From Pseudomonadota bacterium (lineage in GTDB: Bacteria; Pseudomonadota; Gammaproteobacteria; Halothiobacillales; Halothiobacillaceae), in NCBI GenBank assembly GCA_021795795.1, contig JAJYPA010000075.1, positions 1-23,595 of the forward strand: a DNA stretch of 23,595 nt, in the 5' to 3' direction. Shown one piece after another: positions 2,799-18,680 of this stretch. Under the pieces are notes generated by a model. That model searched no databases, had not been told where the DNA came from, and saw nothing but the letters and a program-made list of their open reading frames with translations. Each line of letters begins with the position of its first letter. The first letter of the stretch is position 1. The translations under genes were made by a program, and so were the position numbers.

Positions 2799-2821
2799 TA
2801 CCTATCAGGCTTTGCCAAATT
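2799..2821 (-). promoter_or_regulatory. AATTTGGCA promoter-like element, copy 1
   Basis: Minus strand: exact AATTTGGCA, six bases, then GATAGGTA. It lies 48 bases before the ATG of the AlpA-like gene. It is one of 13 dispersed copies described in the findings. Confidence 0.75.
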
Positions 2822-2903
2822 GTTGATTCTGTTGATGCGGGGTTATGCATAGAGTTGGCCTGTGGTAACGGAATCAGGCACTTGGAAAGTGGGGTCCAGA
2901 CGC

Positions 2904-2928
2904 AAAAAAGCCCCTCATGAAGAGGGGC
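2904..2928 (-). terminator. intrinsic terminator after the outer-membrane protein gene
   Basis: Minus strand stem GCCCCTC/GAGGGGC with a 5-base loop, followed by six T. It lies 25 bases beyond the stop of the gene at 2953-3597. Confidence 0.9.
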
Positions 2929-2952
2929 AATATGCCGCTGGTAAAGCCTTGT

Positions 2953-3597
2953 TTAGAAGTGATAGGCCAAGCCGGCGCCGTAGTTCATCAGGGACGCGCC
3001 GGGCAGGTGGAGATAGGACACATTGATGTTGGCCGTCACATGCCCGGCAATCTTAAAACCAGCGCGCGCTGTGCCCTTGTAAACCGCGCCACCGTTGCCA
3101 TTCTGCGCCATCAAGGTGTGTCCGAAACCGCCGCCGATCTCCAGGCCAACACGGCTGCCCAGGGGGATATCCATGTTCGCTCCGGCTAATCCGTAGAGGT
3201 CCTGGATGCTGGCACCCTGGGTGTAGGAATACGGGGTCTGGTAGGAGTAGGAATACCCGAAGCTACTTTGGGTGATGGTGTTGTACCCCGTTTTCTGCTG
3301 GTTGTAATTCAGGTTGAGAAAGCCAGCACTGAGGTAAGGCTCAAAGCTGACAGAGCCGTGGGTCTGGATGATTTTTCCCAGAGACGCATCCATCTGGTAA
3401 TAACCGCGGGCAAAGGTGGCAGAGCCAGACGCCACCACATCGCGGTGATACAGATTGCCTGCCGTCAGAGTGACCCCCGGACGTCCGGCATGGCCAGATA
3501 AGCCAATGTCAGAATAGCCAAGGCCTACAACCGGGCCAGCCATGGCAACACAAGGGAAGGCGGCGAGTACTGCAACTGCTATGATCTGCTTTTTCAT
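2953..3597 (-). CDS. outer-membrane beta-barrel protein
   Basis: The 214-residue product starts MKKQIIAVAVLAAFPCVAMA, a signal peptide with a likely cut after AMA at residue 20. The mature part alternates short amphipathic stretches (VGLGYSDIGLSG, VSFEPYLSAGFLNLNY, VGLEIGGGFGHTLM, ARAGFKIAGHVTANINVSYL) and ends in Tyr-His-Phe, the C-terminal aromatic signature recognised by the BAM machinery. The size fits an eight-stranded barrel of the Ail/OmpW/opacity type. A Tyr/Ser/Gln-rich part (about residues 105-135) may be an extracellular loop. The ATG at 3597 has CAGGAGT in front and an AATTTGGCA element 52 bases upstream, so the longer reading from 3747 is rejected. A role in mating contact or surface exclusion is possible but not shown. 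Confidence 0.75.
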   Translation of the reverse strand: MKKQIIAVAVLAAFPCVAMAGPVVGLGYSDIGLSGHAGRPGVTLTAGNLYHRDVVASGSATFARGYYQMDASLGKIIQTHGSVSFEPYLSAGFLNLNYNQQKTGYNTITQSSFGYSYSYQTPYSYTQGASIQDLYGLAGANMDIPLGSRVGLEIGGGFGHTLMAQNGNGGAVYKGTARAGFKIAGHVTANINVSYLHLPGASLMNYGAGLAYHF

Positions 3598-3626
3598 GGT
3601 AATACTCCTGTCTGTTGGTTGAACTT

Positions 3627-3649
3627 CATCTATGGAGCACTGCCAAATT
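3627..3649 (-). promoter_or_regulatory. AATTTGGCA promoter-like element, copy 2
   Basis: Minus strand: AATTTGGCA, six bases, then CATAGATG. It is 52 bases before the outer-membrane protein ATG. Confidence 0.8.
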
Positions 3650-3666
3650 AAAAATTTTCCGGCGTG

Positions 3667-3687
3667 AAAAGCCCCTTGGAAGGGGCT
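3667..3687 (-). terminator. second intrinsic terminator of the three-gene unit
   Basis: Minus strand AGCCCCTT/AAGGGGCT stem followed by TTTT, placed just behind the stronger terminator at 3698-3722. Together they form a double stop before the next promoter element. Confidence 0.65.
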
Positions 3688-3697
3688 CTCAAGGCAC

Positions 3698-3722
3698 AAA
3701 AAAACCCGGCGCAACGGCCGGG
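3698..3722 (-). terminator. intrinsic terminator after the three-gene unit
   Basis: Minus strand stem CCCGGC/GCCGGG with a 6-base loop, followed by seven T, 20 bases after the stop of the gene at 3744-3980. Confidence 0.9.
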
Positions 3723-3743
3723 GTGGGTGTGGTTTCGTGATGC

Positions 3744-3980
3744 TCACGCTTTGGGGTCTTCTTCGCTCCAGGTGCGCTGCCAGGTGTCAGGCACCTGGAT
3801 CACCATGATATCCTCCCCGTCTTCATTCACTTCATCCCTGGTACAATCCAGGCTTGCCAGGACTTCATCAAGCGTCTCAGAATCAATAAGATGGCCGCAT
3901 TCTGCGATCGCGTCTTCCCTGGTCATCTGCCCTTCTCTAATGCTTCTTGCCAGCATGTAAGTCATTCCCAATGTATTCAT
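3744..3980 (-). CDS. hypothetical acidic protein, 78 aa
   Basis: This is a small acidic soluble protein (MTREDAIAECGHLIDSET near residue 20; DEVNEDGEDIMVIQVPD near 50) that I do not recognise. Its start has AAGGAG eight bases upstream, and the site follows directly on the stop of the preceding gene (10 bases apart). It is the last gene of a three-gene unit closed by a double terminator. Confidence 0.7.
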   Translation of the reverse strand: MNTLGMTYMLARSIREGQMTREDAIAECGHLIDSETLDEVLASLDCTRDEVNEDGEDIMVIQVPDTWQRTWSEEDPKA

Positions 3981-3990
3981 GTCAGTCTCC

Positions 3991-4266
3991 TTATTGGACA
4001 GTTTTGGGGGTGTTGTGGTGATACTGGACGCGTTTTGTGATGCGCGTCGCCATCATTGCCTGCATGGCCTGCCTGGCAAAACTGAAATTGAGCATCTGCT
4101 CATCAATTTCACCCAGCAAGTCATCCAACTGCTCAAACTCAAGCTGCAGGCGCTCCATGCCTGCCGCCCGGTCTTCTTCGATCGCCACGGCGATCATTGC
4201 GGTCTGATAGCTTAGATCCATCAATAGCTTAATCACGTCTTTGTCTTTATCTCCTGAGTCTTTCAC
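3991..4266 (-). CDS. hypothetical coiled-coil protein, 91 aa
   Basis: The start is GTG, overlapping the TGA of the upstream gene as GTGA, which indicates translational coupling. The middle of the protein (residues about 28-70, AIEEDRAAGMERLQLEFEQL onward) is a long, leucine- and acid-rich amphipathic helix typical of a short coiled coil. The C-terminus is basic. I recognise no family. It is probably made together with the 61-residue membrane protein just upstream and may bind its cytoplasmic side; that is inference from gene order. Confidence 0.65.
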   Translation of the reverse strand: MKDSGDKDKDVIKLLMDLSYQTAMIAVAIEEDRAAGMERLQLEFEQLDDLLGEIDEQMLNFSFARQAMQAMMATRITKRVQYHHNTPKTVQ

Positions 4267-4448
4267 TGGGTGCCTCCTGCTTTTGCTGCCGCCTTCTGGG
4301 CCACCTGGTGAGCTATGCGCTCATATGCTGACACCTGGGTGACAATTTCCACCACTAAAATGCCACCGCCGCCGATGATGGCCGCGATCAGCAGCCATTT
4401 CAGGGCTGATCTCATGGATTGGAACACTTCTTTAATGAACGCTTTCAT
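4263..4448 (-). CDS. small single-pass membrane protein, 61 aa
   Basis: Residues 17-35 (LKWLLIAAIIGGGGILVVE) form one clear hydrophobic segment, with basic residues before it and a charged helix after it. GGAGT precedes the ATG and an AATTTGGCA element stands 56 bases upstream, so this is the first gene of the 4448-to-3744 unit. No family is recognised. Confidence 0.7.
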   Translation of the reverse strand: MKAFIKEVFQSMRSALKWLLIAAIIGGGGILVVEIVTQVSAYERIAHQVAQKAAAKAGGTQ

Positions 4449-4481
4449 GGCTTAAACTCCTGTCTCCTGTGGTTAATCTCT

Positions 4482-4504
4482 CATTAATGTGGTGCTGCCA
4501 AATT
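4482..4504 (-). promoter_or_regulatory. AATTTGGCA promoter-like element, copy 3
   Basis: Minus strand: AATTTGGCA, six bases, then CATTAATG. The first A is also the last base of the topoisomerase stop codon (TGA). It is 56 bases before the ATG of the 61-residue membrane protein. Confidence 0.75.
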
Positions 4505-6516
4505 CACTTCTTTGGCATGGCTTTCCACTTTTCCCCAAGGGCATCGGCATCCTCTTTGTCAGGCCACCAGGCGCCGCTGCATTTCTGGCAACGGTAATAA
4601 GGTTTGCCGCTCTTGGTGCTGAATTTGCCAGTGGGTTGCTTGCATTTCTTGCACTGCGGGCCTTCGGCTTCAGGTGTCGCCTTTGGGCGGTCGGCAAAGG
4701 GTGCGCCGGGGCGCCCATCGGCGTCTTGGAGCAATCCATGGCCATCTTTGATGGAGCATGCCCAGAAAAAAGATCCGGGTTTGTTCCGGCTTTCCAGGCG
4801 CTTCACCTGCCCGGTGCAGCCTTCGACCGGGCAAGGTTCCGTTACCGGTACCGCACCGGCGGGCATAGCTTGCAGGCCGGTTTGCAGCGAGTCCCACACC
4901 CTTTGCATCGTCACCCTTGGCTGCGCTTGGCCTTGGGTGATCTGGTCCAGGGAGTCCTCGATCTCCCGCGTCCAGTCCAGATCCGCGAAGTCAAAACGGC
5001 CAGCCAAGGCGGTGATTACGGACTCGCCAAGGGGTGTTGGGTAGAGGGCCGGGGCCTTACCCTTCTGCTCCATATAGGTGCGGGAGAACAACACCTTTAT
5101 GATGGATGCGTAGGTGCTGGGGCGGCCTACCCCATGATCTTCCAGCGCCTTTATCAGAGTCGCCTCCGTGTATCGTGCCGGGGCCTTGGTGGTCTTTGAA
5201 AGGACTTCCCCGCGCTCGGGTTGTACGGTTGCGCCGCTTTGCAGCACTGGCACGGGGTTTGCGGCTTCCTTGGGCTGATCGTCATCGTCCTCTGACTCTA
5301 TATATAATGTACGCCAGCCCGGATCCGCCATGACTGATCCCGTGGCCTTGAATACGATGGGGTGGCCTTGGAACTCGCCGCCATCCAGCACACAAGATGT
5401 TTGCTGGTACACGGCATCAGGCATCTGACTGGCAAGCGCCCTTTTCAGTATCAGAGAGTAAAGGGCTTGCTGTACGGCGTCGGATCCGGCTTCACTTGCC
5501 ATGGGATCCGTTGGCCTGATGGCTTCATGGGCTTCCTGACTGCCTTCCTTCACCTTCCAGCGCCGGGGCGTCTCAATGACGGGAAGGCCTGCGGCTGCCA
5601 GCGCGTTACGCAGTAACGTCTCGCCTTCCTGACTCAAGTTCGGGGAATCAGTCCTGTGGTAAGTGATGGCGCCGACTTCAAAAAGAGCCTGCGCGGCTTT
5701 CATGATGGCCTCTGTGCCGACTTTCAGCGCACGGGATCCGTCCTGCTGCAAAGTTGACGTGGTGAAAGGCGGCTGTGGTCCTTTCTTGGTGGGTTTGGAC
5801 TCGGCTTGGGTGACGGTCAGAGGTAGGGTGTGCAGGGTGGATGCCAGCGCATCAGCAAAGCCTTTGTCCTGGAAATACTCGCCTTCTTGGGTGCCATCCA
5901 CCCATGCAGCACGCCAGCCGCCGGGCATGTGGGCCATGATCTGAAAGAACGCGGTGGGTTTGAATGCGCGGATCGCCTGCTCGCGCTCCACAATTATCCG
6001 GAGCGCGGGCGTCTGGACGCGGCCTGCCGATGCCTTGGATCCCACTACATTACTCAAGGGGCCGGAACACTCCCAGCCAACCATGCGATCCAGCCCGCGC
6101 CGAACCTCTTGAGCTGCTACAAGGCGCATATCCATGGAGCGCGGATTCTGTATAGCCTTGAGCACCGCGCTTTCTGTGACTTCCTGGTAGGTGACGCGCT
6201 TTGCGTCCGTTGGGCGGATCCCTAGCACTTGACAGAGATGCCAGGCAATGGCTTCACCCTCTCTGTCTGGATCCGTAGCCAGGAAAACGGCATCAGCCTT
6301 GCTGGCGGCGGCTTTCAAACCTGCCACTGTGTCCTTCTTATCGTCGGATATTGAGTAGTTCATCTTAAAATCCGGGGGCCGGACATAGCTTTTGTCGCCG
6401 GATTTTTCCAGGTCCCTGATGTGCCCAATGGACGCTTTAACAATCCAGTCACTATCCAGAAAGTGCTGGATGTGCTTGGCTTTGGTGGGTGATTCGACTA
6501 TCAAAAGTTTCGTCAT
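4504..6516 (-). CDS. topA: plasmid-encoded type IA DNA topoisomerase I
   Basis: The 670-residue enzyme relaxes negative supercoils through a 5'-phosphotyrosine. The TOPRIM domain opens with LLIVESPTKAKH (Glu9) and has TDPDREGE at 81-88 for metal binding. SAGRVQTPALRII (163-175) is the conserved domain IV signature. The active Tyr286 lies in ITYHRTDSPNLS. The C-terminus carries two cysteine sets (CPVEGC...C and CKKC...CQKC) for zinc ribbons. E. coli TopA has 865 residues, so this is a short form with fewer zinc modules. The ATG at 6516 is preferred over 6660 because the family N-terminus starts there, GGGAG precedes it, and it overlaps the upstream stop as ATGA. It sits behind a VirB1-like gene, which suggests a role in plasmid replication or conjugation like other plasmid type IA enzymes. 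Confidence 0.93.
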   Translation of the reverse strand: MTKLLIVESPTKAKHIQHFLDSDWIVKASIGHIRDLEKSGDKSYVRPPDFKMNYSISDDKKDTVAGLKAAASKADAVFLATDPDREGEAIAWHLCQVLGIRPTDAKRVTYQEVTESAVLKAIQNPRSMDMRLVAAQEVRRGLDRMVGWECSGPLSNVVGSKASAGRVQTPALRIIVEREQAIRAFKPTAFFQIMAHMPGGWRAAWVDGTQEGEYFQDKGFADALASTLHTLPLTVTQAESKPTKKGPQPPFTTSTLQQDGSRALKVGTEAIMKAAQALFEVGAITYHRTDSPNLSQEGETLLRNALAAAGLPVIETPRRWKVKEGSQEAHEAIRPTDPMASEAGSDAVQQALYSLILKRALASQMPDAVYQQTSCVLDGGEFQGHPIVFKATGSVMADPGWRTLYIESEDDDDQPKEAANPVPVLQSGATVQPERGEVLSKTTKAPARYTEATLIKALEDHGVGRPSTYASIIKVLFSRTYMEQKGKAPALYPTPLGESVITALAGRFDFADLDWTREIEDSLDQITQGQAQPRVTMQRVWDSLQTGLQAMPAGAVPVTEPCPVEGCTGQVKRLESRNKPGSFFWACSIKDGHGLLQDADGRPGAPFADRPKATPEAEGPQCKKCKQPTGKFSTKSGKPYYRCQKCSGAWWPDKEDADALGEKWKAMPKK

Positions 6517-7004
6517 GACTTGCTCCCTGTATATCTCTGCGAAAAATAATCTACGGTGCTCACATATGCGCCGCCACCATTTCCAAGGCTTAAGTGCCCT
6601 GTCGTATATGCCGCCACTGCCAAATTCTGAGCCTGCGCTCCACGGTAACCCCGTCCCCATGCCCAGCCTTGGTTTTCACTCAATAGATGTGCGGCAAAAT
6701 TCGCGGCATAGCAGGCATTTAAGGCATCCAAATTCGTGATTTTCCAGCCCTGGAAATTGCTGCTTTTCAGGCCAAAAGCGCCGATGGCCACGTTATGCCC
6801 TTGTCTTTCCAGTCTGTGGATGATTGCCAGCGCTTTGCCTGGATTGCTTGGCCGGTACACTCGCAGCGTGGATGTATCCACCAGTTGCAGAGGGTCGCCC
6901 GTGCCTGCCGTTTCGGTCTCGGCTATGCCGTAAAGCGTCCTTCTAGCCGCTTTTGGAGCGCATTTTATATAGGCGCTGGGTGGTTCAGTCTGGTAGTGCA
7001 TCAT
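6513..7004 (-). CDS. VirB1-like lytic transglycosylase
   Basis: The 163-residue product follows the VirB1 layout: TLYGIAETET at 23-32, where Glu29 or Glu31 would be the catalytic acid, then DPLQL, a helix SNPGKALAIIHRLERQG, then HNVAIGAFGLKSSNF, corresponding to the GLMQIN block of the SLT fold, and LDALNACYAANFAAHLL, corresponding to the DPC.N..AGA.IL block. These proteins open the peptidoglycan for the type IV secretion channel. Unlike typical VirB1 it has no evident signal peptide (start MMHYQTEPP). The start has AAGGAG seven bases ahead; the stop overlaps topA as ATGA. An AATTTGGCA element is embedded in its 3' part at 6604-6626. The Glu assignment is uncertain. Confidence 0.65.
   Translation of the reverse strand: MMHYQTEPPSAYIKCAPKAARRTLYGIAETETAGTGDPLQLVDTSTLRVYRPSNPGKALAIIHRLERQGHNVAIGAFGLKSSNFQGWKITNLDALNACYAANFAAHLLSENQGWAWGRGYRGAQAQNLAVAAYTTGHLSLGNGGGAYVSTVDYFSQRYTGSKS
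6604..6626 (-). promoter_or_regulatory. AATTTGGCA promoter-like element, copy 4, inside a CDS
   Basis: Minus strand: exact AATTTGGCA, six bases, then GCATATAC, the least typical 3' half of the set. It lies within the VirB1-like coding sequence, 110 bases before the topA ATG, so it could give topA its own transcript. Confidence 0.5.
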
Positions 7005-7820: not shown

Positions 7821-7855
7821 TTCGGTTACTCCTGTTCATCAGTTAGTGGGGTGTT

Positions 7856-7878
7856 CATCTATCTGGTGTTGCCAAATT
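7856..7878 (-). promoter_or_regulatory. AATTTGGCA promoter-like element, copy 5
   Basis: Minus strand: AATTTGGCA, six bases, then GATAGATG, 58 bases before the 194-residue membrane protein ATG. Confidence 0.8.
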
Positions 7879-8208: not shown

Positions 8209-8238
8209 TTCGGTACTCCTTCTATTGATGTGGGACTA

Positions 8239-8261
8239 CACCTATAGGGGATTGCCAAATT
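8239..8261 (-). promoter_or_regulatory. AATTTGGCA promoter-like element, copy 6
   Basis: Minus strand: AATTTGGCA, six bases, then TATAGGTG, 53 bases before the 89-residue protein ATG. Confidence 0.8.
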
Positions 8262-8550: not shown

Positions 8551-8722
8551 CGGATTTACTCCTGTGTGTGGTGGAAAATGGAGCCGCTTTCGGCGGCGAG
8601 TCGGGTTGCCCCTTGGGGAAGGAGATAGCTACATCAAGCCAATGGCAACCTGCCGGCGTTTATCGCCACTGACCGGCTTGGCGGCAATGGTGTATCAGAA
8701 TGTGTGACGCCAGTGTCACGTA
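8551..8722 (-). promoter_or_regulatory. long structured 5' leader of the micro-pilin gene
   Basis: About 170 bases separate the promoter-like element from the micro-pilin ATG, against about 25-35 in most other units. The minus strand contains several stems: GTGAC/GTCAC, a long imperfect stem with CAAGCC/GGCTTG ends, CCCC/GGGG, and GCCGC/GCGGC close to the ribosome site. I see no gene and no known riboswitch consensus. Control by RNA structure or a small RNA is possible. Confidence 0.45.
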
Positions 8723-8731
8723 TATTGATAC
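8692..8731. promoter_or_regulatory. 40-bp nested palindrome over promoter copy 7
   Basis: The order GTATCA-N6-GTGAC-N6-GTCAC-N6-TGATAC is exactly symmetrical. The outer arm on one side covers the TATC of the promoter-like element, so a dimer-of-dimers repressor binding here would shut the micro-pilin promoter. Confidence 0.6.
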
Positions 8732-8745
8732 GGTGATGCCAAATC
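8723..8745 (-). promoter_or_regulatory. AATTTGGCA promoter-like element, copy 7 (variant)
   Basis: Minus strand: GATTTGGCA, the only copy with a changed first base, six bases, then TATCAATA. It begins two bases after the stop of the 66-residue protein gene and stands 195 bases before the micro-pilin ATG. Confidence 0.6.
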
Positions 8746-8958: not shown

Positions 8959-11900
8959 TTAGATTTCCCTTTCCATGCCGCCCTTGTCCTTGTCCACATT
9001 CTGCTGGGTTGGGTCATAGCGCAGTTTTTGAGCGGCCTCGCGCCCCAAGACTGTGTCCCAATTTTGGGCTGCCTTTCCGGCGTCGTCGCCCCTTTCAGGC
9101 CTTTGCGTTTCCACCCACTGGGCCATCTTGTCCATCGGTGGCATTGGCGCTCTTTCTGGGCTTTCAGGCTGCTGCACCGGTGCCGGCGCGCCCTTCTCTG
9201 CCGATGATGCCTTATCCTTGCTGGGTTCTTCCTTGGGGGTGGTTGGACCTATGTCTGGGTCCTTGATGCCTTCCTCCCGCATTGCCTTGAGAGCCCTCTC
9301 CTGGACAATCATTTGTTGATCGTACTCCATCATCGCGATGTCAATGGGCATCGGGTTGAGGTAGGCCTCTTCCTCCAGGCGCCTCTGATGTTGCTCCTCT
9401 ATAAGCTTTTCGCGCAATTCTTGGGAGACATAAGGCACGAACGGCTTTTCTTCATGCCGATGCCCCTGGATCGCGTCCTGCATGTCTTGGCTTTGGCGAT
9501 GTTCGGGCTCTGGGGCCGATTCAATGTAGTCCTGCTCCCCCATCGCCGACGGCACGCTTTCATCCCAGACAGGTTCGCGGGCTGACTCGGCCGCGCGTTC
9601 CGCACCGTCCTTTTCAGTTTCTGGGGCCTGCTGATCCTGGGTGTGATGGTGGTAACGCTCGGCTGCTTCCGGGTGCTCCGCTTCCCATTTCTGGATCTCT
9701 TCATCCGTTGCCACTGAACGCCCATGCTCGTCAATCCATTGGTGGGGGTTATCTGGGGAATTTACCTGCCCGTTTATCTCAGCCATGTGCTGCCTGGCTT
9801 GGCGCTCTTCAGCGTCCAGGCGGTAGGCTTCCATCATGTCCTGCCCATCCTTTTCGTACTCGGTGAGTTCATGCACAGGCGTTTCCGGCTGATCCGTTAC
9901 CTCTTTCTCACTGGGTGCCGCTGTTTCGTGAGTATCACGATCCGGCTCCGCCTCGCGGAGTGCGCCGTCGCCGTCAGGTGCTTCCCGCTCGCTGTTTACG
10001 CTGGCGGCGGAGCCTTTCTCCGGCTCCATTTTCGGATCCATATCTTCCTTTTCCACAATTTCCATCTTCTTTTCCTCCACCTGCTGGTTAAACTTCTGTT
10101 GATCTTTAGAGTGTGCATAATCAATTGCGTTTTGCTGGTACTGGTATCCTTTACCCCAATCTTTTTGGAGTTGGGATACATTATCGGTGTGTACCTTTAT
10201 TTCATACCGGAATCGCGTTTGCCCCACATAACCCTGATTCCCTGTATTGATTTGACTTCCGGATCTCAGTGCGGCAATGCCATAATCTGCCGTTGCGCCC
10301 TGCATGCTATGGACCGTTCCTGAATAGGCATGTTCCACCCTTACTCCGCCATTTTTATCAATCGCCACGGCTTCACCCTGGGACGTTTTAATGTAGATCT
10401 TGCTTTCATCGATCCCGGTCACTACTCCTTTCTGGCCGTTAAACACCTTCATTTCCTGGCCGTCCGGCTGCTCAATGTCCTGATTTTGCTTGAAGATGAT
10501 CTTGTCGTTTACGGCCATCGCTGTTTGCTTTTCCTGATACTCTTTGACCTTGCCCGCTTCATCCGGTTTCCAGAGTATTTCGCGGTTTTCCTTATCGATG
10601 AGCCGGACTTCAGCCTTTTGTAGATCCACGCTTTGGACTCTGTATTCCTGGCCCTTCTCCAGAATGACCGGCATGTTTTTCTTGGCTTCTTCGCCTTGCT
10701 TGGACATTTCTGCACGGGTTTCTATATGATGCTTTTGCAGGGCTGCATCGGCAAATTTAGCACCATGCACGGCATAATTCTTTTCGGGAATGATGACGAT
10801 CTGGACGGCTTTGCCGTCCGCGTCTTTCATTTTACCATCATAGTAATAGGCCTGCCTTAATTCTTCTTTGGTTGCTTTTCCGTCATGCAAGGTACGCGCC
10901 TGCACGTCTTGCGCGCCTAGTGTGCCTTCGGCTTTTAATCCTGCCCTGATTCCTTCATTCAGGCGTTCGCGCATACTATTTGTAGCTACTAAAAGCAGGG
11001 TATTATCCCGCATTTGACTGGGGATGCCTTTATCGTTTTCTATTGGTGTTCCCTGTGGTAAGGCCAAGTATTCCTTGGCTACGGCATCAGCAATCTTCTG
11101 ATCTATTTCCTTGTAATCTTTGGCGTCTGCTATGTCCACTGGCACCATGAATTGCTCCATGGCCGTCGCTGCTTCTGATGCTTTGCCCTGGCTGAATAGT
11201 TCTGCAATATTCAGCATTTCCGGGGTTTTCTGGCGGCGGATTTCAGTCAAGGTGGATGAATCGCATTCTTTTTTCATGATCCTGAAAGGGCTGCCGGATC
11301 CGACTGCCTGGAGCTGGTTGTCATCCCCAACAAAAAGCCCGCGGCTTTTGTTTTGTTCGATGGAATCAACGATTTTTGCACCTTCCTCGCTGGCCGTCAT
11401 CCCGTGCTCGTCGCCAAAAAAGAACGTGTCCGGGCCACCTTTTTGACCAGCGGCTATCCACGCCGCATGGGTTTTGCATTCCACTCCAATTGAGGTTAGC
11501 TCCTTCACCGCCTGCGTTCCGGACGCTATTCCCAGCACCTTATGCCCGCGATTTTCAGCCGCGATTTTTACCACTTCCAGCGCGGTCGTCTTGCCGGCAC
11601 CGGCTACACCTTGCCACACGGTATTTCGATCACCTGACTCCAGGGTGGTGTGAATTGCGGCTACCTGATCAGATGACAGTTTAAATCCTTTCTGGGCTTC
11701 ATATGTGGATATTGCTTTCTGTATTTCTTCCTTTGTCCATCGGTCTTTTAAGGGAATCGCGCCCTTTCCGGCTCGTAGATTTTTGATCATCTTTTCGTCG
11801 CGGGCAACGGCCAGGCTGGTAGTTACCCATCGCTCAACGGATTGCACGCCTGTCTTGGGATCTACCGGGGCTTTGGCGGTGAGTAGGCCATGCTGATCCT

Positions 11901-13029
11901 TTCTTTCTGGGAAGGCTTGCCTTAACTCTGATTCTGTGATGCCCTTGGGCAAGCCAACCGCCAGCGCATGCTTCACCACTTCTTTTGCTTCAAAAACGGA
12001 TTGCCTTTCAGACAGATGACGCGCCGCACTCAGTAGTGCGGCTGCAGCCATGTCCATGCGCTGCTCGTGGTTTTCGTGACGCTCATTTAACAAGGCGGCT
12101 TCCTTGATGGATTTAAAATCGTAGCCCTTTTCCAGCACTAATTTGTAACCTTGGGCCAGCATTTGCTCATGGGTGATGTGGATCTTTTCCTCTCGGATTT
12201 TGAAGGCGGCCGCCTGCTTTTGGTCGCTGGTCGCAGTTGCTCTGGTCAGGCCCATCTTCTCCAGTTCTTTTTCTATTGCTTTCAGTCTGGGGGAGAAATC
12301 TTCCACCATCTGCCTATCGATTCCTACTATCTCAAAAGCGTCTTTTGTTTTGTATAGATCATACCCCAGCTGACGCAATTCGCTTGCCAGTTCAGAGAGA
12401 TAGGTAGCGTTCATCTCCTTTTCCCATCCCTGGTATTTATCCCAGGAAACGGCGCGCTCCGCGCCGTCGCTGGTTCGGATCGCTACATTCATGAATAGCG
12501 CATGCGTGTGTAGGTCTGCGGCCACGAACCCGTTTACCGGGCGCGCGTCCAGGTGCTGGGCCAGGGCTATGATGAACTCGCCGGCCACCTTTTCCTGCTT
12601 TCCATCCACCATGCCCCGGACAGCCATCATGCGCTCCTGGATTTTCTCCAGCGTTTTTAAGACAGCGCGGTTGTGGGCTTCTAAGATCCTCTCATCGCCA
12701 CCGTAGGTTGCCATGATTGACACTGATTTTGGGGCAGACATTACTATGTCTTCGCCCGTGCGCCTTTCGTTTCCGTTATTCACGATCTGCGGCATTTCCC
12801 GGCCGTCCGGCAATTTGCCTTTGATCATGTCATCGAACACTTTCAAATCGTGTTCTGTCTTGATTTCTGGGGGCAATCCCAGCAACTCGGCTCCAGATCC
12901 TACCCATTGCATGGGGGCATGGGCGGCGGCTTGCACTTCTCCAAGGTCGTTTTTTTCACTGTAATATTCAGCACTTCCATAGTATTGCGAACCGTCGCCG
13001 CTGATGCCGGTTTTGCTTGGGGTGATCAT
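8959..13029 (-). CDS. traI: MobF relaxase-helicase, TrwC/TraI family
   Basis: This 1356-residue enzyme nicks and unwinds plasmid DNA for conjugation. The N-terminal relaxase has the double tyrosine pairs Tyr16-Tyr17 and Tyr22-Tyr23, nearly at the F TraI positions, the MobF motif MSAPKSVSIMA (97-107), and the metal-binding histidines His159, His174 and His176 (HTH). The RecD-like helicase has Walker A GVAGAGKTT (474-482), GDEHGM as motif II (Asp540-Glu541), GLFVGDDNQLQAVGSG as motif III, and the late VHSMQGAT and VGQTR motifs. About 350 C-terminal residues are charged, Gln/Glu/Pro-rich and probably disordered. R388 TrwC has 966 residues and F TraI 1756. The start has AAGGAG and follows an AATTTGGCA element and a GC stem-loop. 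It lies directly behind the coupling protein gene as in R388. Confidence 0.95.
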   Translation of the reverse strand: MITPSKTGISGDGSQYYGSAEYYSEKNDLGEVQAAAHAPMQWVGSGAELLGLPPEIKTEHDLKVFDDMIKGKLPDGREMPQIVNNGNERRTGEDIVMSAPKSVSIMATYGGDERILEAHNRAVLKTLEKIQERMMAVRGMVDGKQEKVAGEFIIALAQHLDARPVNGFVAADLHTHALFMNVAIRTSDGAERAVSWDKYQGWEKEMNATYLSELASELRQLGYDLYKTKDAFEIVGIDRQMVEDFSPRLKAIEKELEKMGLTRATATSDQKQAAAFKIREEKIHITHEQMLAQGYKLVLEKGYDFKSIKEAALLNERHENHEQRMDMAAAALLSAARHLSERQSVFEAKEVVKHALAVGLPKGITESELRQAFPERKDQHGLLTAKAPVDPKTGVQSVERWVTTSLAVARDEKMIKNLRAGKGAIPLKDRWTKEEIQKAISTYEAQKGFKLSSDQVAAIHTTLESGDRNTVWQGVAGAGKTTALEVVKIAAENRGHKVLGIASGTQAVKELTSIGVECKTHAAWIAAGQKGGPDTFFFGDEHGMTASEEGAKIVDSIEQNKSRGLFVGDDNQLQAVGSGSPFRIMKKECDSSTLTEIRRQKTPEMLNIAELFSQGKASEAATAMEQFMVPVDIADAKDYKEIDQKIADAVAKEYLALPQGTPIENDKGIPSQMRDNTLLLVATNSMRERLNEGIRAGLKAEGTLGAQDVQARTLHDGKATKEELRQAYYYDGKMKDADGKAVQIVIIPEKNYAVHGAKFADAALQKHHIETRAEMSKQGEEAKKNMPVILEKGQEYRVQSVDLQKAEVRLIDKENREILWKPDEAGKVKEYQEKQTAMAVNDKIIFKQNQDIEQPDGQEMKVFNGQKGVVTGIDESKIYIKTSQGEAVAIDKNGGVRVEHAYSGTVHSMQGATADYGIAALRSGSQINTGNQGYVGQTRFRYEIKVHTDNVSQLQKDWGKGYQYQQNAIDYAHSKDQQKFNQQVEEKKMEIVEKEDMDPKMEPEKGSAASVNSEREAPDGDGALREAEPDRDTHETAAPSEKEVTDQPETPVHELTEYEKDGQDMMEAYRLDAEERQARQHMAEINGQVNSPDNPHQWIDEHGRSVATDEEIQKWEAEHPEAAERYHHHTQDQQAPETEKDGAERAAESAREPVWDESVPSAMGEQDYIESAPEPEHRQSQDMQDAIQGHRHEEKPFVPYVSQELREKLIEEQHQRRLEEEAYLNPMPIDIAMMEYDQQMIVQERALKAMREEGIKDPDIGPTTPKEEPSKDKASSAEKGAPAPVQQPESPERAPMPPMDKMAQWVETQRPERGDDAGKAAQNWDTVLGREAAQKLRYDPTQQNVDKDKGGMEREI

Positions 13030-13058: not shown

Positions 13059-13060
13059 TT

Positions 13061-13083
13061 CATCTATATGTCATTGCCAAATT
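13061..13083 (-). promoter_or_regulatory. AATTTGGCA promoter-like element, copy 8
   Basis: Minus strand: AATTTGGCA, six bases, then TATAGATG, the closest copy to the consensus. It is 54 bases before the relaxase ATG and just after the coupling protein stop. Confidence 0.85.
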
Positions 13084-13086
13084 GGA

Positions 13087-14928
13087 TTAGAAGGGATCGT
13101 CATGGCCGATTTCTTCCTGCTCCACTTCACCGGGCAACTGGAACTCGGACACGGACGCGTTTACGGTAGTGGGGGTTGATTCCGTCACTTGGGGCAGGCT
13201 TGGGACCGTTTCGGAGATAAGATCAGGTTCGGGGGTGATGGCGCGCGCCATTACATAGGCTTGGGCCTGGCTGGGACGGTCTTTCCAGTTCAGTTTGACG
13301 CGACAGATCTTCACTCCATCATCACTTGCGGGGTACAGGAGAATGCCTTCCAGCTTGGGCAAGCCCTGGATCTGACTGGGCAAAATCGAGTCTTCAACCG
13401 TGTTCTGAAAGCTGCTGGACTCGCCACCCCCCGATGAATTGGAGCTTTCAGACTGGACTTCACGCACCAGGTTTCGGGTGCCGATTGCTTTCGCGGCCCA
13501 TTGGGAAGTGTCCGGATCCGGCAATCGCAGAATCAGCTTGGACTGAGGCAATCCCAACATGGTCTCGGCTCCAAATTGTCCATACGTGTCGCGGAGTTGA
13601 GCGATTGATTGGATGCCCGTTACTACGGCAAGGCCGTATTTCCTGCATTCCGCTTGGGCGATTCCAATCTTGGGCATTTTTTGGAGCGTTGGCAGCTCGT
13701 CCACCATCAACCAGAGCCGCCGGACACGACTTGGGGGAAGCATCATGACGCCGTTAATGGCCACGTCTAGCCAGAGACTCAGCAACGGTCTTAGCGTCGT
13801 CCTTTGGTCTGCACGACTTGTCAGGAAGAGCCACGAGCCCTTATTTTGCTCTTCATTCATCACCCATTCCCGTATGGAAAAGGGCATTTCTCCTGGGCGC
13901 GTATCGCGCAGATAGCGCAAACAGGTTGTTGGGGCTGTCATGCTGGCCCGCGAGTTTGAAAATGTCTGACTTGAGCCGACAAGGCCTAGCAGGCCGCATT
14001 TTTTCACCAGTTCTATTAACTCTTCATTTTCAGACGCCATGATCATGCGAGTCATCTCGGATACGGATTTTGTGGTTTCCAAGATCGCCACTAACAGCGC
14101 GCGTGCGCTTTGTGGAAAGAATGGTTGACGCTCATCATCGGCAATCAAACCGCCTGCAAGGGCTTCAAAGTCCGCCCTATTATCCGCATCGGACCATGGA
14201 GTCCAAGGCTCAGACCTGGCATCCAGTGGGTTAAGAATACGGTCACCAGGACGGTAAAACCACTGGAGATATTCACCCGTTGGATCGTATACAATTGCCC
14301 TTTCACCCCTTAACCTTATCGTTTCCAACATCTGGGAAATGGCAACTGACTTACCAGTTCCTGGGCCGCCGGCAAGCAGGAAATGGCTAGGCTCTTCGTC
14401 GCGCGGGATTTCTACACCCCCAATAGTTATGGGGTATTTCTCTTTGGTTTTGAGCGCTGCCAGCTTCTTCGGATCCCGATAATCATAGATCCGCGCACCA
14501 CGAATAAACTCGCCATCCATGTCTTCGTCATCGGTGTTGCTGGCGACTTTCTTCTTATGCAAAAGGATTCTGTGGACAGCAAACAGGGTGACAATCGCCA
14601 AGAGAAAACCGATGCTTTGGGAGGAGATCATGGTTATTCCTGCTGCGGTTCCTGTCACCCAGCCTGCCCCAAAAAAAGCCCATCTTGAAGGGCGCGGATC
14701 GCCCTTTCTGGGGGTGTCTTTGCCACCCAAAAACGCGAGGAAAAAGACCATCATGCCCATGGCATAACCGGGCAACATTACCATGCCTTGGCCGTAAGTT
14801 ACGGCATTCATACCCATGCCGGTAAGGCCGCTGGAGACCATAACCAGCGTCCAAATCCAGTACATAGCTTTGCCGATTCCGGCTGTAAACTTCTCTTTCT
14901 TACGGTTGGGTTTTGCGTTTGCGTCCAT
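13087..14928 (-). CDS. traD: type IV coupling protein, TrwB/TraD family
   Basis: This 613-residue hexameric ATPase brings the relaxase-DNA complex to the secretion channel at the inner membrane. The N-terminal 125 residues hold several hydrophobic segments (about 21-40, 50-68, 84-100 and 103-123), more than the two of R388 TrwB. The ATPase shows Walker A GGPGTGKS (187-194), YDPTGEY, and Walker B LWLMVDE (405-411) followed by LPTL, as in TrwB. The acidic C-terminus ends DDPF. AAGGAG precedes the ATG. It lies 33 bases after a 41-codon gene and probably shares its promoter (copy 9). The gene order RHH protein, coupling protein, relaxase equals trwABC. Confidence 0.93.
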   Translation of the reverse strand: MDANAKPNRKKEKFTAGIGKAMYWIWTLVMVSSGLTGMGMNAVTYGQGMVMLPGYAMGMMVFFLAFLGGKDTPRKGDPRPSRWAFFGAGWVTGTAAGITMISSQSIGFLLAIVTLFAVHRILLHKKKVASNTDDEDMDGEFIRGARIYDYRDPKKLAALKTKEKYPITIGGVEIPRDEEPSHFLLAGGPGTGKSVAISQMLETIRLRGERAIVYDPTGEYLQWFYRPGDRILNPLDARSEPWTPWSDADNRADFEALAGGLIADDERQPFFPQSARALLVAILETTKSVSEMTRMIMASENEELIELVKKCGLLGLVGSSQTFSNSRASMTAPTTCLRYLRDTRPGEMPFSIREWVMNEEQNKGSWLFLTSRADQRTTLRPLLSLWLDVAINGVMMLPPSRVRRLWLMVDELPTLQKMPKIGIAQAECRKYGLAVVTGIQSIAQLRDTYGQFGAETMLGLPQSKLILRLPDPDTSQWAAKAIGTRNLVREVQSESSNSSGGGESSSFQNTVEDSILPSQIQGLPKLEGILLYPASDDGVKICRVKLNWKDRPSQAQAYVMARAITPEPDLISETVPSLPQVTESTPTTVNASVSEFQLPGEVEQEEIGHDDPF

Positions 14929-15087: not shown

Positions 15088-15112
15088 TCTATGACTCCCT
15101 TGGGTGGTGATT

Positions 15113-15135
15113 CATCAATAGGGAACTGCCAAATT
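15113..15135 (-). promoter_or_regulatory. AATTTGGCA promoter-like element, copy 9
   Basis: Minus strand: AATTTGGCA, six bases, then TATTGATG, 48 bases before the ATG of the 41-residue protein; it would also transcribe the coupling protein gene. Confidence 0.8.
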
Positions 15136-15890: not shown

Positions 15891-15892
15891 GT

Positions 15893-15915
15893 CACCATTG
15901 GGCCGGTGCCAAATT
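15893..15915 (-). promoter_or_regulatory. AATTTGGCA promoter-like element, copy 10
   Basis: Minus strand: AATTTGGCA, six bases, then CAATGGTG. The 3' half is atypical. It is 74 bases before the RHH protein ATG. Confidence 0.6.
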
Positions 15916-16533: not shown

Positions 16534-16555
16534 CTCACACCCCGCGCTATTCGGT

Positions 16556-16577: not shown

Positions 16578-16584
16578 GGTTATT

Positions 16585-16800
16585 TCATGCTGCCGCCTGC
16601 AATTGCCGCAATTCATTACGGGTGATTGCTGCGTCTCCGAGTGCACGCGGATCCTTGCGCTTTGAGTAATAGCCCACAATATAAGATGGGCAATTCGCCA
16701 ACGCTTTCGCTTCCTTACTGCCTGCCATGCACCATTGAACAGTCAAGGTGATATCCAGATAAGCACACCACACAATGCGTCTTTCGGTTTTAGTTTTCAT
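16585..16800 (-). CDS. hypothetical basic protein, 71 aa
   Basis: This is a small basic protein (KTKTERRIVWCAYLD at the start, YYSKRKDPRALG in the middle, ITRNELRQLQAAA at the end) with three cysteines. AAGGAG stands seven bases before the ATG. It follows the membrane protein gene upstream by 22 bases in the 17216-to-16585 unit. I see no recognisable family. Confidence 0.6.
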   Translation of the reverse strand: MKTKTERRIVWCAYLDITLTVQWCMAGSKEAKALANCPSYIVGYYSKRKDPRALGDAAITRNELRQLQAAA

Positions 16801-16822
16801 TGCAGTCTCCTTATCTCTTCAC

Positions 16823-17035
16823 TTAAATAATGGCGCCGAGTAGCAGATGCCACAAATTCCAGCTAGCCCAGAGTGCGTCCAACAAAAAGAACAGGAAGAA
16901 TATAGCCAGCCATTCAACTGCTTCTTCTGCTCCTTTTGGAGTCATGATGTAATCTTCCAAAAGGATTTTGTTTTTGATCACCGCAGCCGCCGCGCGGCCT
17001 ATCCAGTCTTTCCAGATTTGATCAAGGTATTTCAT
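16823..17035 (-). CDS. small membrane protein, 70 aa
   Basis: The N-terminal half is soluble and basic (IWKDWIGRAAAAVIKNKILL); residues about 41-68 (EWLAIFFLFFLLDALWASWN onward) form one long or two short hydrophobic, Trp-rich membrane segments. ATG 17035 has AAGGAG seven bases before it, and that site overlaps the TAA of the upstream gene, so the two are coupled. The earlier in-frame ATG at 17059 lies in the upstream gene. No family is known. Confidence 0.65.
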   Translation of the reverse strand: MKYLDQIWKDWIGRAAAAVIKNKILLEDYIMTPKGAEEAVEWLAIFFLFFLLDALWASWNLWHLLLGAII

Positions 17036-17045
17036 GTCACACTCC

Positions 17046-17216
17046 TTATGCTTTTCCATTCAGAACGCATGCCAGACTACGGCCGCCGTGAGTCAAACAA
17101 TACGATGTGCTACGCACGGGCAATTGCTTTTGGACGCTGTTTGCCGCCGCCCATGAATAGCCGCCCATGATTCCCATGCTCAGAATCAAGATGCCAGTTA
17201 TTAGCAACGTCTTCAT
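17046..17216 (-). CDS. small exported protein, 56 aa
   Basis: The ORF reads MKTLLITGILILSMGIMGGY, then SWAAANSVQ, a convincing signal peptide with a likely cut after AAA at residue 25. The mature part has only about 31 residues, with two cysteines (SYCLTHGG and LACVLN) that could form a disulfide. AAAGG lies eight bases before the ATG; a GC stem-loop and an AATTTGGCA element (77 bases upstream) precede it, which confirm it as a true gene and first of its unit. No family is known. Confidence 0.68.
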   Translation of the reverse strand: MKTLLITGILILSMGIMGGYSWAAANSVQKQLPVRSTSYCLTHGGRSLACVLNGKA

Positions 17217-17229
17217 TTTCGTTTCCTTT

Positions 17230-17244
17230 GGGGCCGATGGCCCC
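17230..17244 (-). promoter_or_regulatory. GC stem-loop in the leader of the 56-residue protein
   Basis: A perfect GGGGCC/GGCCCC stem with a 3-base loop stands directly before the ribosome site, almost the same as the stem in the relaxase leader. Confidence 0.55.
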
Positions 17245-17270
17245 TTGCAGTTGCAGTTTGAGTTTCACTT

Positions 17271-17293
17271 CACTTATACGGTGGTGCCAAATT
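17271..17293 (-). promoter_or_regulatory. AATTTGGCA promoter-like element, copy 11
   Basis: Minus strand: AATTTGGCA, six bases, then TATAAGTG. The second A belongs to the TAA stop of the upstream gene. It is 77 bases before the 56-residue protein ATG. Confidence 0.8.
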
Positions 17294-17477
17294 AGTTGGC
17301 GCCCTGCGCTTCCAATGCTTCAACCAAAGCAAAGATGCGTTCCGCGTCTTTTTGACTACCATGTGTTTCACGCTGGATCACTGCTTTGACCTTTTCCAGA
17401 TTCATTTTCAGCCCACCCATTTTTTGGAGCTCAACGCGGATCCTGATTACCAGAGTCACTATTTCTGCCTGCTTCAT
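17292..17477 (-). CDS. hypothetical helical protein, 61 aa
   Basis: This is a small helical protein (MKQAEIVTLVIRIRVELQKM, then NLEKVKAVIQRETHG and AERIFALVEALEAQG). I prefer ATG 17477, with AAGGG 10 bases ahead, over GTG 17534, because the latter lies inside promoter copy 12. The leader would be about 55 bases. Its stop overlaps promoter copy 11. No family is known. Confidence 0.6.
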   Translation of the reverse strand: MKQAEIVTLVIRIRVELQKMGGLKMNLEKVKAVIQRETHGSQKDAERIFALVEALEAQGAN

Positions 17478-17531
17478 GTTCTGTATTCCCTTCCGGTTTT
17501 CCGGGTGCGAAGTTGGCTGAATTGCCGCCTT

Positions 17532-17554
17532 CACAGATAGGCCACTGCCAAATT
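17532..17554 (-). promoter_or_regulatory. AATTTGGCA promoter-like element, copy 12
   Basis: Minus strand: AATTTGGCA, six bases, then TATCTGTG. It shares its first bases with the TAA stop of the upstream 114-residue gene and is 77 bases before the chosen start. Confidence 0.75.
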
Positions 17555-17897
17555 AATTTTTTGGGGAAGCGTCCAGCAAAAATCTTGAGTGATACCGCAT
17601 GAAGAATTTATCCACTTGCCAGGCAGAAAACAGGGATATCTCCAGCGATGTGCTTATCTCCAATGCGCCTTTCCAATGCGTGCCCGATAAAGTCACCGCT
17701 TTCCACCAGACGTGCCAAAACCCCGGGGTTAAATCCCCCGCCGCATATTTATTGAAGATCAGGACCAAGCCGCCCCAAAAATCCGGCAAGCCGCCCCACG
17801 GGATAAGGTGTAACAGGTACACCATAAGAAAAAATGATAAGACAGACACCGATATAGCGCGAGCGATACGACGAGACAGACTTAAGGCTTCGTGCAT
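17553..17897 (-). CDS. membrane protein, 114 aa
   Basis: Residues about 15-34 (ISVSVLSFFLMVYLLHLIPW) form one clear membrane segment; a second, weaker hydrophobic stretch (LPDFWGGLVLIF) follows. The remainder is Trp-rich. ATG 17897 has AAAGGAG eight bases ahead; a longer reading from 18056 would run through the palindrome cluster and is rejected. It is the only minus-strand gene of this block with no AATTTGGCA element in front; instead the palindromes of 17927-18066 precede it, so it may be controlled separately. No family is known. Confidence 0.65.
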   Translation of the reverse strand: MHEALSLSRRIARAISVSVLSFFLMVYLLHLIPWGGLPDFWGGLVLIFNKYAAGDLTPGFWHVWWKAVTLSGTHWKGALEISTSLEISLFSAWQVDKFFMRYHSRFLLDASPKN

Positions 17898-17926
17898 GAC
17901 AAAATCTCCTTTAGTGCACCTGCTGT

Positions 17927-18078
17927 GTACTTTTAGTACATACCAACCAGTCGGTTGACTGGCTTCCGGGGGTGAAAACCTAAAACTCAGTACTTTTAAG
18001 TACTCAGAAAGTACTGTTGTGCCTTTACAACAAGCCACCAGCCTGAATCCGTGCACTTTTAGGTGCTCAAGAAGTTCT
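17927..18078. promoter_or_regulatory. cluster of GTAC palindromes, operator or iteron array
   Basis: Three related palindromes lie here: GTACTTTTAGTAC (17927-17939), AGTACTTTTAAGTACT (17989-18004, followed by CAGAAAGTACT) and GCACTTTTAGGTGC (18053-18066, followed by TCAAGAAGTTCT). The last two form a degenerate direct repeat of about 27 bases. A CCAGTC/GACTGG hairpin stands between the first and second. They precede the 114-residue membrane protein gene. A repressor array or the iterons of a replication origin would both fit. Confidence 0.5.
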
Positions 18079-18107
18079 CGCGTTTCGAAAGGCGTCTGGC
18101 TTGTGCC

Positions 18108-18167
18108 GTGCTGCGTTTTGCGGGTTTATGGTAGGTAAGTACTGCCTACCACCAGAAAACGCACCAC
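18108..18167. repeat. large nested inverted repeat centred on AGTACT
   Basis: The outer arms GTGCTGCGTTTT and AAAACGCACCAC pair over 12 bases with one mismatch; the inner arms GGTAGG/CCTACC (18130-18150) flank AAGTACTG. The centre shares the AGTACT core with the neighbouring palindromes. It could be a cruciform, a protein-binding site or part of an origin. Confidence 0.55.
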
Positions 18168-18184
18168 AGGGCAGGGAAAGCGGC

Positions 18185-18634
18185 CTAATGGAGCGGCACG
18201 GCACGAGTCCGCCCGTCCGCACCCCTGAGAATGGCGACTTGTTCGCCGGGGTGAAGGTGTGGGTTGCCCGCTTCTGGGACGCCTAACAATTGCCCGTCGG
18301 TGAGTTTCACCATGACCTCTGTGCCATTCACATGGCCGGAAGTGGCGGCATTGCCGATGATGGCTCCGCCTACAAGGCCGGCGACCGCGCCGATGGCGTT
18401 GCCGCCGATCAAATAACCGGCCGCGCCGCCAGCGATGCCGCCCAAGGTGCCATTGGCCGCTTTGGCTTGGGTGTTACTGATTTCCACGGGCTGACACCGA
18501 ATGACAGTGCCTTCGGCCAAGGTCTGGGCCTGAAGATTTTCGGTACTGCTATACCGCTGATAAGACAGGGGGGTGGTGGCGCAACCGGTAAGGGTGAGGG
18601 CCAAGATGGGGATAATGAAGATTTTGGGATTCAT
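18185..18634 (-). CDS. glycine-zipper outer-membrane lipoprotein, SlyB/17-kDa antigen type
   Basis: The 149-residue product has a lipoprotein signal (MNPKIFIIPILALTLTGC, lipobox LTGC with Cys18). Residues about 70-105 are a glycine-zipper repeat (GGIAGGAAGYLIGG, then GAVAGLVGGAIIG), the signature of the Rick_17kDa_Anti/SlyB family that inserts hairpins in the outer membrane. The C-terminus (VKLTDGQLLGV and EQVAILRG) is the usual small beta domain. AGGAG precedes the ATG and the promoter element is 46 bases upstream. Its role on a plasmid is unclear: envelope stability or entry exclusion are possible. Confidence 0.85.
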   Translation of the reverse strand: MNPKIFIIPILALTLTGCATTPLSYQRYSSTENLQAQTLAEGTVIRCQPVEISNTQAKAANGTLGGIAGGAAGYLIGGNAIGAVAGLVGGAIIGNAATSGHVNGTEVMVKLTDGQLLGVPEAGNPHLHPGEQVAILRGADGRTRAVPLH

Positions 18635-18657
18635 GGCAGTGCTCCTGATTGAGTAGA

Positions 18658-18680
18658 CATCTATCAGGCGCTGCCAAATT
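18658..18680 (-). promoter_or_regulatory. AATTTGGCA promoter-like element, copy 13
   Basis: Minus strand: AATTTGGCA, six bases, then GATAGATG, 46 bases before the lipoprotein ATG. It is the rightmost copy. Confidence 0.8.

Follow-up and report, generated by a model that had tools for sequence, protein, structure and literature searches.

Short words that recur ahead of many genes of one mobile element raise the question of whether they are promoters and, if so, what reads them. The question is posed here by a 23,595-nucleotide (nt) stretch of DNA from a gammaproteobacterium of the Halothiobacillaceae (contig JAJYPA010000075.1), hereafter the window, in which one such word is dispersed along the minus strand. 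An original prediction, made from the letters of the window, took the copies for an element-wide promoter-like signal with a dedicated factor, and the analysis reported here supports that view. We propose, with moderate confidence, that a 25-base-pair (bp) element built on this word would act as a promoter in its own right and define a regulon across each of a family of Acidithiobacillus mobile elements, answering to a factor of its own. Conservation, orientation, spacing to start codons, the fact that no other promoter signal exceeds chance, and a change of wording between elements can all be read directly from the DNA, and together they suggest that the element is a promoter at all. Two related elements in the genome of Acidithiobacillus ferrianus (G001) are used throughout for comparison:

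E1: A. ferrianus, C31:251952-270861, 14 copies of the 9-mer
E2: A. ferrianus, C31:405880-420433, 11 copies of the 9-mer

Element copies in the window

The word RATTTGGCA is found 13 times in the window, always on the minus strand, and a recount bears out the predicted twelve exact copies of AATTTGGCA and one variant, GATTTGGCA, at 8745 (sites are named by the first base, position 1, of the minus-strand 25-bp element). The accompanying claim that well under one copy would arise by chance holds for AATTTGGCA, with 0.31 expected per strand under an order-2 Markov model, but not for the R form, for which about one (1.02, standard deviation 1.02, maximum of 4 in 100 shuffles) is expected on both strands. 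A second half, A17-T18 followed by R21-T22-G23, had also been described as conserved; its strict form is present at nine of the 13 sites, while 15915 (CAATGGTG) and 2821 (GATAGGTA) are near misses and 8745 and 6626 lack it.

Eight copies lie 46-58 bp ahead of an ATG, as had been noted, and three more lie 74-77 bp away; 6626 is 110 bp from the topoisomerase ATG, and 8745 has no start codon preceded by a ribosome-binding site (RBS) within range, the micro-pilin ATG being 195 bp distant. Overlaps with stop codons, likewise reported, are seen at 4504, 17293 and 17554. Most sites do stand upstream of minus-strand genes, but 6626 is intragenic, within 6513-7004, which encodes the VirB1-like protein. 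This copy is retained in E1 and E2 within the same conserved gene, where the second half is absent too, and it probably reflects coding conservation, not a promoter. The sites are listed below.

Site 1: 2797..2821, minus strand, 48 bp ahead of gene A (HTH_17/AT-hook-like); matching site in E1
Site 2: 3625..3649, minus strand, 52 bp ahead of the outer-membrane-like gene 2953-3597; a terminator ends 53 bp upstream
Site 3: 4480..4504, minus strand, overlaps the topoisomerase stop codon; 56 bp ahead of gene 4263-4448
Site 4: 6602..6626, minus strand, within the VirB1-like gene; without second half
Site 5: 7854..7878, minus strand, 58 bp ahead of gene 7236-7820; a terminator ends 31 bp upstream
Site 6: 8237..8261, minus strand, 53 bp ahead of gene 7939-8208
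Site 7 (GATTTGGCA): 8721..8745, minus strand, second half weak; 195 bp ahead of the micro-pilin gene
Site 8: 13059..13083, minus strand, 54 bp ahead of the MobF relaxase gene; hairpin GGGGCC-AACC-GGCCCC in the untranslated region (UTR) from position 26
Site 9: 15111..15135, minus strand, 48 bp ahead of gene 14962-15087, itself upstream of TraD
Site 10: 15891..15915, minus strand, 74 bp ahead of the NikA-like gene 15392-15841; second half degenerate
Site 11: 17269..17293, minus strand, overlaps a stop codon; 77 bp ahead of gene 17046-17216
Site 12: 17530..17554, minus strand, overlaps a stop codon; 77 bp ahead of gene 17292-17477
Site 13: 18656..18680, minus strand, 46 bp ahead of a lipoprotein-like gene (named by eye), 18185-18634

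The counterparts of site 7 in E1 and E2 retain TATAGATG, with additional spacer bases.

The 25-bp element in three related mobile elements

Taken together, the window, E1 and E2 provide 40 sites of this type, referred to as type 1 (13, 14 and 13, respectively), which align as the 25-bp element AATTTGGCA-N-Y-R-C-C-N-N-ATAGRTGAA. The scan covered the element strand (E2 has one opposite-strand AATTTGGCA at 14455, outside the element) and the set excludes E2 sites before coordinate 20000 (one GATTTGGCA at 11189), which are also outside. In the logo of the 40 sites positions 2-9 are set by the search word, and positions 10-25, like the matched pairs below, are independent of it. Here C14 and A17 are each found at 37 sites, T22 at 34, T18 at 31 and G20 at 29, and the strict second half at 21. 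Ahead of the sites, from position -44 to 0, there is almost no signal, the strongest being T at -1 with 0.41 bit. The same picture emerges from 23 matched pairs between the window and E1 or E2, the intragenic site 6626 being excluded: identity is 205/207 (99%) over positions 1-9 and 154/207 over positions 17-25, against 361/920 (39%) in the 40 bp upstream and 197/460 over positions 26-45.

The distance to an RBS-preceded start codon is confined to 46-77 bp at 34 of the 40 sites (25 at 46-58 bp and nine at 67-77 bp). One further site stands at 97 bp, three, all the same intragenic site, stand at 110 bp, and two have no start in range; several sites contain two to four additional spacer bases. 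Terminators end 30-38 bp before position 1 at four of the 40 sites, one being a doubtful hairpin inside a gene, and there is therefore little room for another promoter at these sites; seven further terminators end 52-88 bp before position 1. UTR hairpins are found at 11 of 55 sites, with the 5′ arm beginning at positions 26-28 in six, at 23 in one and at 40-50 in four. If these hairpins are meant to be transcribed whole, transcripts would start no later than about positions 23-28. A hairpin of the form GGGGCC-NNN(N)-GGCCCC lies shortly ahead of the RBS at six of the 55 sites, including 13083 and 17293 of the window and sites in E1 and E2.

The original prediction named equal frequency away from gene starts as what would tell against it, and in the A. 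ferrianus genome the copies are instead concentrated in two clusters. These clusters, about 33.5 kb in total, hold 25 of the 41 copies of AATTTGGCA, the other 16 being spread across about 3.17 Mb, and all 12 matches of the longer pattern WATTTGGCAN7ATNNRTG lie within them.

Relatives of the window and their wordings

A search of a plasmid collection with the window found no match at the level of near-identical DNA. Against plasmid proteins, TraD matched at least 5000 records, all below 60% identity and at 32-36% among the matches listed, and the replication protein gave partial matches to seven records at 28-37%. Among about 85,000 species genomes a pattern-based search, which detects close relatives only, found one relative of TraD, 81% identical, in A. 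ferrianus MG. The gene order of the window and its proteins are largely common to E1 and E2 (proteins of the elements were compared by BLASTP, and selected ones were scanned with Pfam); identities to E1 and E2, respectively, are 58% and 81% for TraD, 36% and 61% for MobF, 82% and 83% for the topoisomerase, and 84% and 85% for the VirB1-like protein. The four related elements, E1, E2 and the elements C6 and F16 described below, are on contigs of 46.6 to 573 kb. A gene of the phage-integrase family (PF00589, 3.6e-25) borders E1, C6 has one that is 49% identical, and E2 has a truncated one. The label of plasmid is unproven for the window. Type IV secretion parts recognised among the scanned proteins of the window are TraD, the VirB1-like protein and the relaxase, and nothing more. 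The elements are presumably mobilizable, the scan for type IV systems having covered proteins of the window. In E1 (E1rc 14453-15658, G001:C31), a gene 47 bp behind an element site encodes a Dam methylase domain (PF05869) with, by eye, a ParB-like front.

Twelve further MobF loci from the genus were retrieved for comparison, and two of them carry sites with other wordings. A k-mer count of element C6 of Acidithiobacillus ferrivorans (G005:C6) found type 2, with eight copies of TGTTTCCGC[TC][CT]TGCACATA, invariant over positions 0-9 and 12-19 and 48-69 bp ahead of start codons; one of the eight is on the opposite strand, ahead of a divergent gene. Aligned on ATA, types 1 and 2 have in common TTT at positions 3-5, C14 and ATA at positions 17-19. 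The core derived from these two types, TTT-N8-C-N2-ATA[GT], found type 3 blind in element F16 of A. ferrianus (G001:C16), where the full set comprises six sites, TGTTTCCG[AC]NNNGCACA, at 46-72 bp ahead of start codons. With the core pattern the remaining ten MobF loci were free of matches, as were the reversed or complemented versions of all 15 sequences that served as controls. Among the 14 sites of types 2 and 3, TTT at 3-5 and C14 are present in all and ATA at 17-19 in 12; two type-3 sites have lost this ATA or have it displaced by two bases.

No element mixes wordings: type 1 only in the window, E1 and E2, type 2 only in C6, and type 3 only in F16. This points to a family of element-specific promoters rather than to the quirk of one replicon. 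Moreover, the window and F16 have homologous outer-membrane-like genes (66% identical) that stand behind a type-1 and a type-3 site, respectively, which suggests that promoter type goes with the element rather than with the gene. Types 1 and 3 occur together in the A. ferrianus genome, whose three X proteins (see below) are on one contig of 3,077,018 bases. F16 and C6 also have a divergent operon with an element site in front, whose products are a small helix-turn-helix (HTH) protein, an ATPase that by eye resembles ParA and is 77% identical between the two elements, and a third protein; we take the arrangement to be reminiscent of stbABC of R388.

Outside the elements, the strict patterns give only single matches in the 17 genomes of the genus, in G002, G006 and G007. 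Those in G002 and G006 are inside a porin-like gene (named by eye) on the opposite strand, and that in G007 is the one match elsewhere to the type-2/3 pattern. Across 369 genomes of the class, the type-1 pattern is found in A. ferrianus only, apart from one single match (G272). Among viral contigs, 29 have one pattern match each, with a second, weak matrix match in one (L075, 13.1 compared with 15.1-34.8 for sites) within the stretches retrieved, and no relative of TraD or sigma X was found. Dispersed 10-mers in a further sequence (L071) were set aside; they look like a coding repeat, because most of their spacings are multiples of 84 bases.

Possible readers of the element

In the promoter proposed here, positions 1-9 together with C14 would form a specificity box, and the downstream ATAGRTG would be the melting and start box, with transcription starting within or just after it. 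Host core RNA polymerase would be brought there by a dedicated factor specific to the type of element. The factor would most likely be encoded by the element itself, either as the sigma70-like protein X of the replication operon or as a small HTH protein (gene A in the window), which would hold RNA polymerase at a promoter that has no -35 box. Not every copy counts, with 6626 being intragenic and 8745 lacking the second half. As a common reader, sigma X is not supported: the spacing of the boxes speaks against it, as does the fact that the families of X do not follow the types of site.

Known promoter classes do not fit well. The halves, as had been argued, are too close for a -35/-10 pair, the boxes being 7-10 bp apart. 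A housekeeping sigma70 promoter, with -35 and -10 boxes separated by 16-18 bp, was rejected, as no pair at the sites rises above shuffles: in a matrix-based search, 55 sites scored 3.60 against 3.54 for shuffles in the 100 bp upstream, and 2.31 against 1.87 (standard deviation 2.9) across the site. A consensus scan of positions 1900-19000 of the window found nine sigma70-like sites, with 12.1 expected, and none directly ahead of a gene of the element. A sigma54-type promoter with TTTGGCA as its -24 box is hardly credible. Mean sigma54-like scores do exceed those of shuffles (3.89 against 1.35 over positions 1-45, and 4.99 against 3.23 from -40 to +35), which is due to GGCA, but the GC of the -12 box, whose absence had been noted, is found at the required distance, ten bases from the GG (positions 18-19), in none of the 40 type-1 sites; moreover the type-2 block is without any GG and five of the six type-3 sites have GG elsewhere, at positions 12-13. 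The original prediction allowed for another polymerase, and the layout of the element, with an AT-rich end, a variable specificity block and ATAG at the start, does resemble promoters of the T7, K11 and SP6 type. The distance from TTT to G20 is 18 nt, comparable to -17 to +1 of T7-type promoters, and the specificity block differs between site types as ATA stays constant. Such promoters keep a fixed distance to an initiating G that hardly ever varies, however, whereas here several sites have two to four additional spacer bases and G20 is present in only 29 of 40. The domain PF00940 was not found in the genomes of A. ferrianus (G001) or A. ferrivorans (G005), where relatives of the window reside, nor in any of the 17 genus genomes (T7 control, 9.9e-110), and a phage-type single-subunit polymerase as the reader is thus disfavoured and very improbable.

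Two other explanations would assign the element to different machinery. In one, which we regard as rather unlikely, the promoters would be switched on by the main activator that a helper conjugative element supplies, much as those of SGI1-family elements answer AcaCD of IncC; this helper logic is established for SGI1-like elements in the part of PMC8409611 available to us. It would suit elements that carry MobF, TraD-like and VirB1-like genes without a full type IV secretion system recognised in the scanned window proteins, and site type does track relaxase type (type 1 in the window, E1 and E2, types 2 and 3 in C6 and F16, a pair with 75% identity between their relaxases), whereas the replication protein of F16 is instead closest to those of the window (76%) and E2 (79%), with 26% identity to that of C6. 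Against it, an FlhC-family protein was found in neither of the two host genomes of the relatives (an Escherichia coli control was detected), and no helper with such sites was seen in the 17 genus genomes, where the strict patterns elsewhere are the single matches given above. Furthermore, SGI1 sites work with a -10 box, as far as the available text of PMC7826253 goes, and none is visible downstream of the sites described here. The other explanation is that the element is an operator or an RNA element, a repressor site or a 5′-UTR signal transcribed from promoters further upstream. The narrow distance to the start codon would accord with this, as would the hairpins in 11 of 55 UTRs, such as a leader might have, but the upstream DNA is almost unconserved and has no sigma70-like sequence above chance, terminators end closely upstream of some sites, and Rfam finds nothing in the window; we consider it quite unlikely.

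Gene content and candidate factors

Genes of the window that bear on a reader, or that have an assignment, are listed here.

Gene A: 2513..2773, minus strand, weak HTH_17 match (PF12728, E=3.8e-5, 24.3 bits, below the cut-off of 27); candidate regulator behind its own site
MobF relaxase/helicase: 8959..13029, minus strand, MobF profile 178.1 bits, cut-off 100
TraD-like coupling protein: 13087..14928, minus strand, closest to F-type proteins, with a score under their equivalog cut-off; A. ferrianus counterpart 81% identical
Type IA topoisomerase: 4504..6516, minus strand, profile match
VirB1-like lytic transglycosylase: 6513..7004, minus strand, E 4.6e-14, below the equivalog cut-off; 84-85% identical in E1/E2
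Putative replication-type protein: 19540..23079, minus strand, weak Toprim_3 match; not separated from gene B by an element site
Gene B: 23073..23594, minus strand, related to gene A and with an AT-hook-like tail; truncated at its 5′ end by the edge of the window

The replication operon of F16 has the order X, B, rep, with the sigma gene X directly upstream of the gene B homologue; the corresponding locus of the window is cut within gene B. F16-X is a sigma70-family protein by NCBI name, Pfam and fold. Region 4 is recognised by Pfam at E<=0.1 in 13 of 14 members of the X family, F16-X itself scoring 20.8 bits, below the cut-off of 24.1. The fold of F16-X (model predicted local distance difference test, pLDDT, 62) matches mostly sigma factors, but Foldseek template-modelling (TM) scores are about 0.2 and the structural alignment also gives non-sigma rows (8hno_A, 4ldz_B); the fold therefore supports two sigma-like domains only. 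A Q-[LM]-x-L-F tail is present in 13 of 14 members, and F16-X ends in QLSLF, which we take to be the canonical clamp-binding form. Region 4 is otherwise conserved in the family, with two forms of the recognition helix, NFSRERPRQ and NRHRERARQ, which look as if promoter specificity were being switched. E1 encodes a distant, region-4-like X that is below the cut-off, with a profile match to F16-X (68%, E 4.9e-5). E2 and C6 have a different, HTH-type X, encoded between B and rep, that cannot be recognised as a sigma factor; an accompanying alignment used 18 of 33 relatives. A sigma70-family protein is thus supported in F16, region-4-like in E1 and not recognised in E2 or C6.

Gene B is disfavoured as the reader, because the B proteins of E2 and C6 are 66% identical and have nearly the same HTH although the site types differ; even so, E1 might supply a reader to E2 in trans. 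Gene A is the second candidate reader for type 1. In the window and in E1, where the counterpart is 78% identical, this small HTH protein is encoded behind a site of its own; its GRGRPKK tail is, we assume, AT-hook-like. E2 may have lost gene A at an insertion sequence, the transposase-like gene that follows its last shared gene being named by eye. A more far-reaching idea, in which we have little confidence, is that sister elements, even in one genome, would run orthogonal private transcription channels, combining a compact -35-less promoter and a swapped specificity block with fast-diversifying element-encoded sigma-like factors that carry a clamp-binding tail, transfer-gene expression possibly being tied to element replication.

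The window also encodes a weakly NikA-like protein and many small proteins without assignment; its outer-membrane-like gene has no Pfam match, and Rfam and tRNA scans of the window gave none. A 31-amino-acid frame at 8455-8550 (minus strand) consists of a type-IV-pilin-like N-terminal helix, with the glutamate at position 5 after the glycine that such pilins as a rule have, and little else, and a 77% identical frame occurs in E1. At 2396-2423 (minus strand), TTGCAT-16-TATAAT, with the palindrome ACTACTAGTAGT in its spacer, stands ahead of gene 1932-2339 and by eye looks like an ordinary sigma70-like promoter outside the regulon, with a -35 box below detection by the consensus scan. An Mrr-type restriction endonuclease gene (PF04471) at 2-529 on the plus strand, cut by the window edge, has no element site.

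Comparison with known systems

If the proposal holds, the sites of each element, about six to fourteen in number, would form a regulon that is readable from sequence alone, and one mobile-element family would contain three or more promoter wordings, with a single one in every element scanned. Related elements with different wordings suggest a private gene-activation switch for each kind of element in acid-loving Acidithiobacillus. Such elements would offer a testable system for the co-evolution of promoters and their readers, a sequence tag for finding relatives in acid-mine metagenomes, and a promoter geometry outside standard sigma rules. Literature searches, covering titles and abstract openings with most subscription journals outside coverage, returned no description of the element.

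Late promoters of phage T4 have neither a -35 box nor an upstream specificity block and are read by the small sigma gp55 with the sliding clamp. The element resembles them in being -35-less and in the clamp-binding-type tail of F16-X (clamp coupling being putative), and differs in its upstream specificity block. SigN (ZpdN) of plasmid pBS32 of Bacillus subtilis is a plasmid-encoded sigma factor that reads many dispersed plasmid promoters, with none found on the chromosome according to the consulted portion of PMC6751061. The elements described here similarly carry many dispersed copies of their own putative promoter, and the strict patterns lie on the elements rather than the chromosome in the 17 genus and 369 class genomes, apart from the single matches given above. 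SigN promoters, as far as that portion goes, have -35 and -10 boxes at apparently ordinary spacing and mapped 5′ ends, whereas here the boxes are 7-10 bp apart and the reader is a candidate only; sister elements here also differ from pBS32 in having several promoter wordings.

AcaCD is an FlhDC-family activator from a helper that drives integrative mobilizable elements of the SGI1 family (PMC8409611 and PMC7826253, in the parts available). Several genes of a mobilizable element are under one motif in both cases, but compared with what these parts describe the sites here are more numerous and have no -10 box downstream, and neither of the two host genomes yielded a protein of the FlhC family. 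AlpA-type factors, in the available part of PMC9371919, bind between -35 and -10 and serve antitermination; in both cases a DNA-binding protein, putative for the present element, would read a short box directly ahead of the melting region, but the present element has no -35 box and no general downstream terminator. On these partial sources, the SigN regulon of pBS32 comes nearest among known systems, and where mobilizable elements are concerned the AcaCD regulon of relatives of SGI1 does; the element differs from both in its box spacing, its several wordings and a reader for which there are candidates only.

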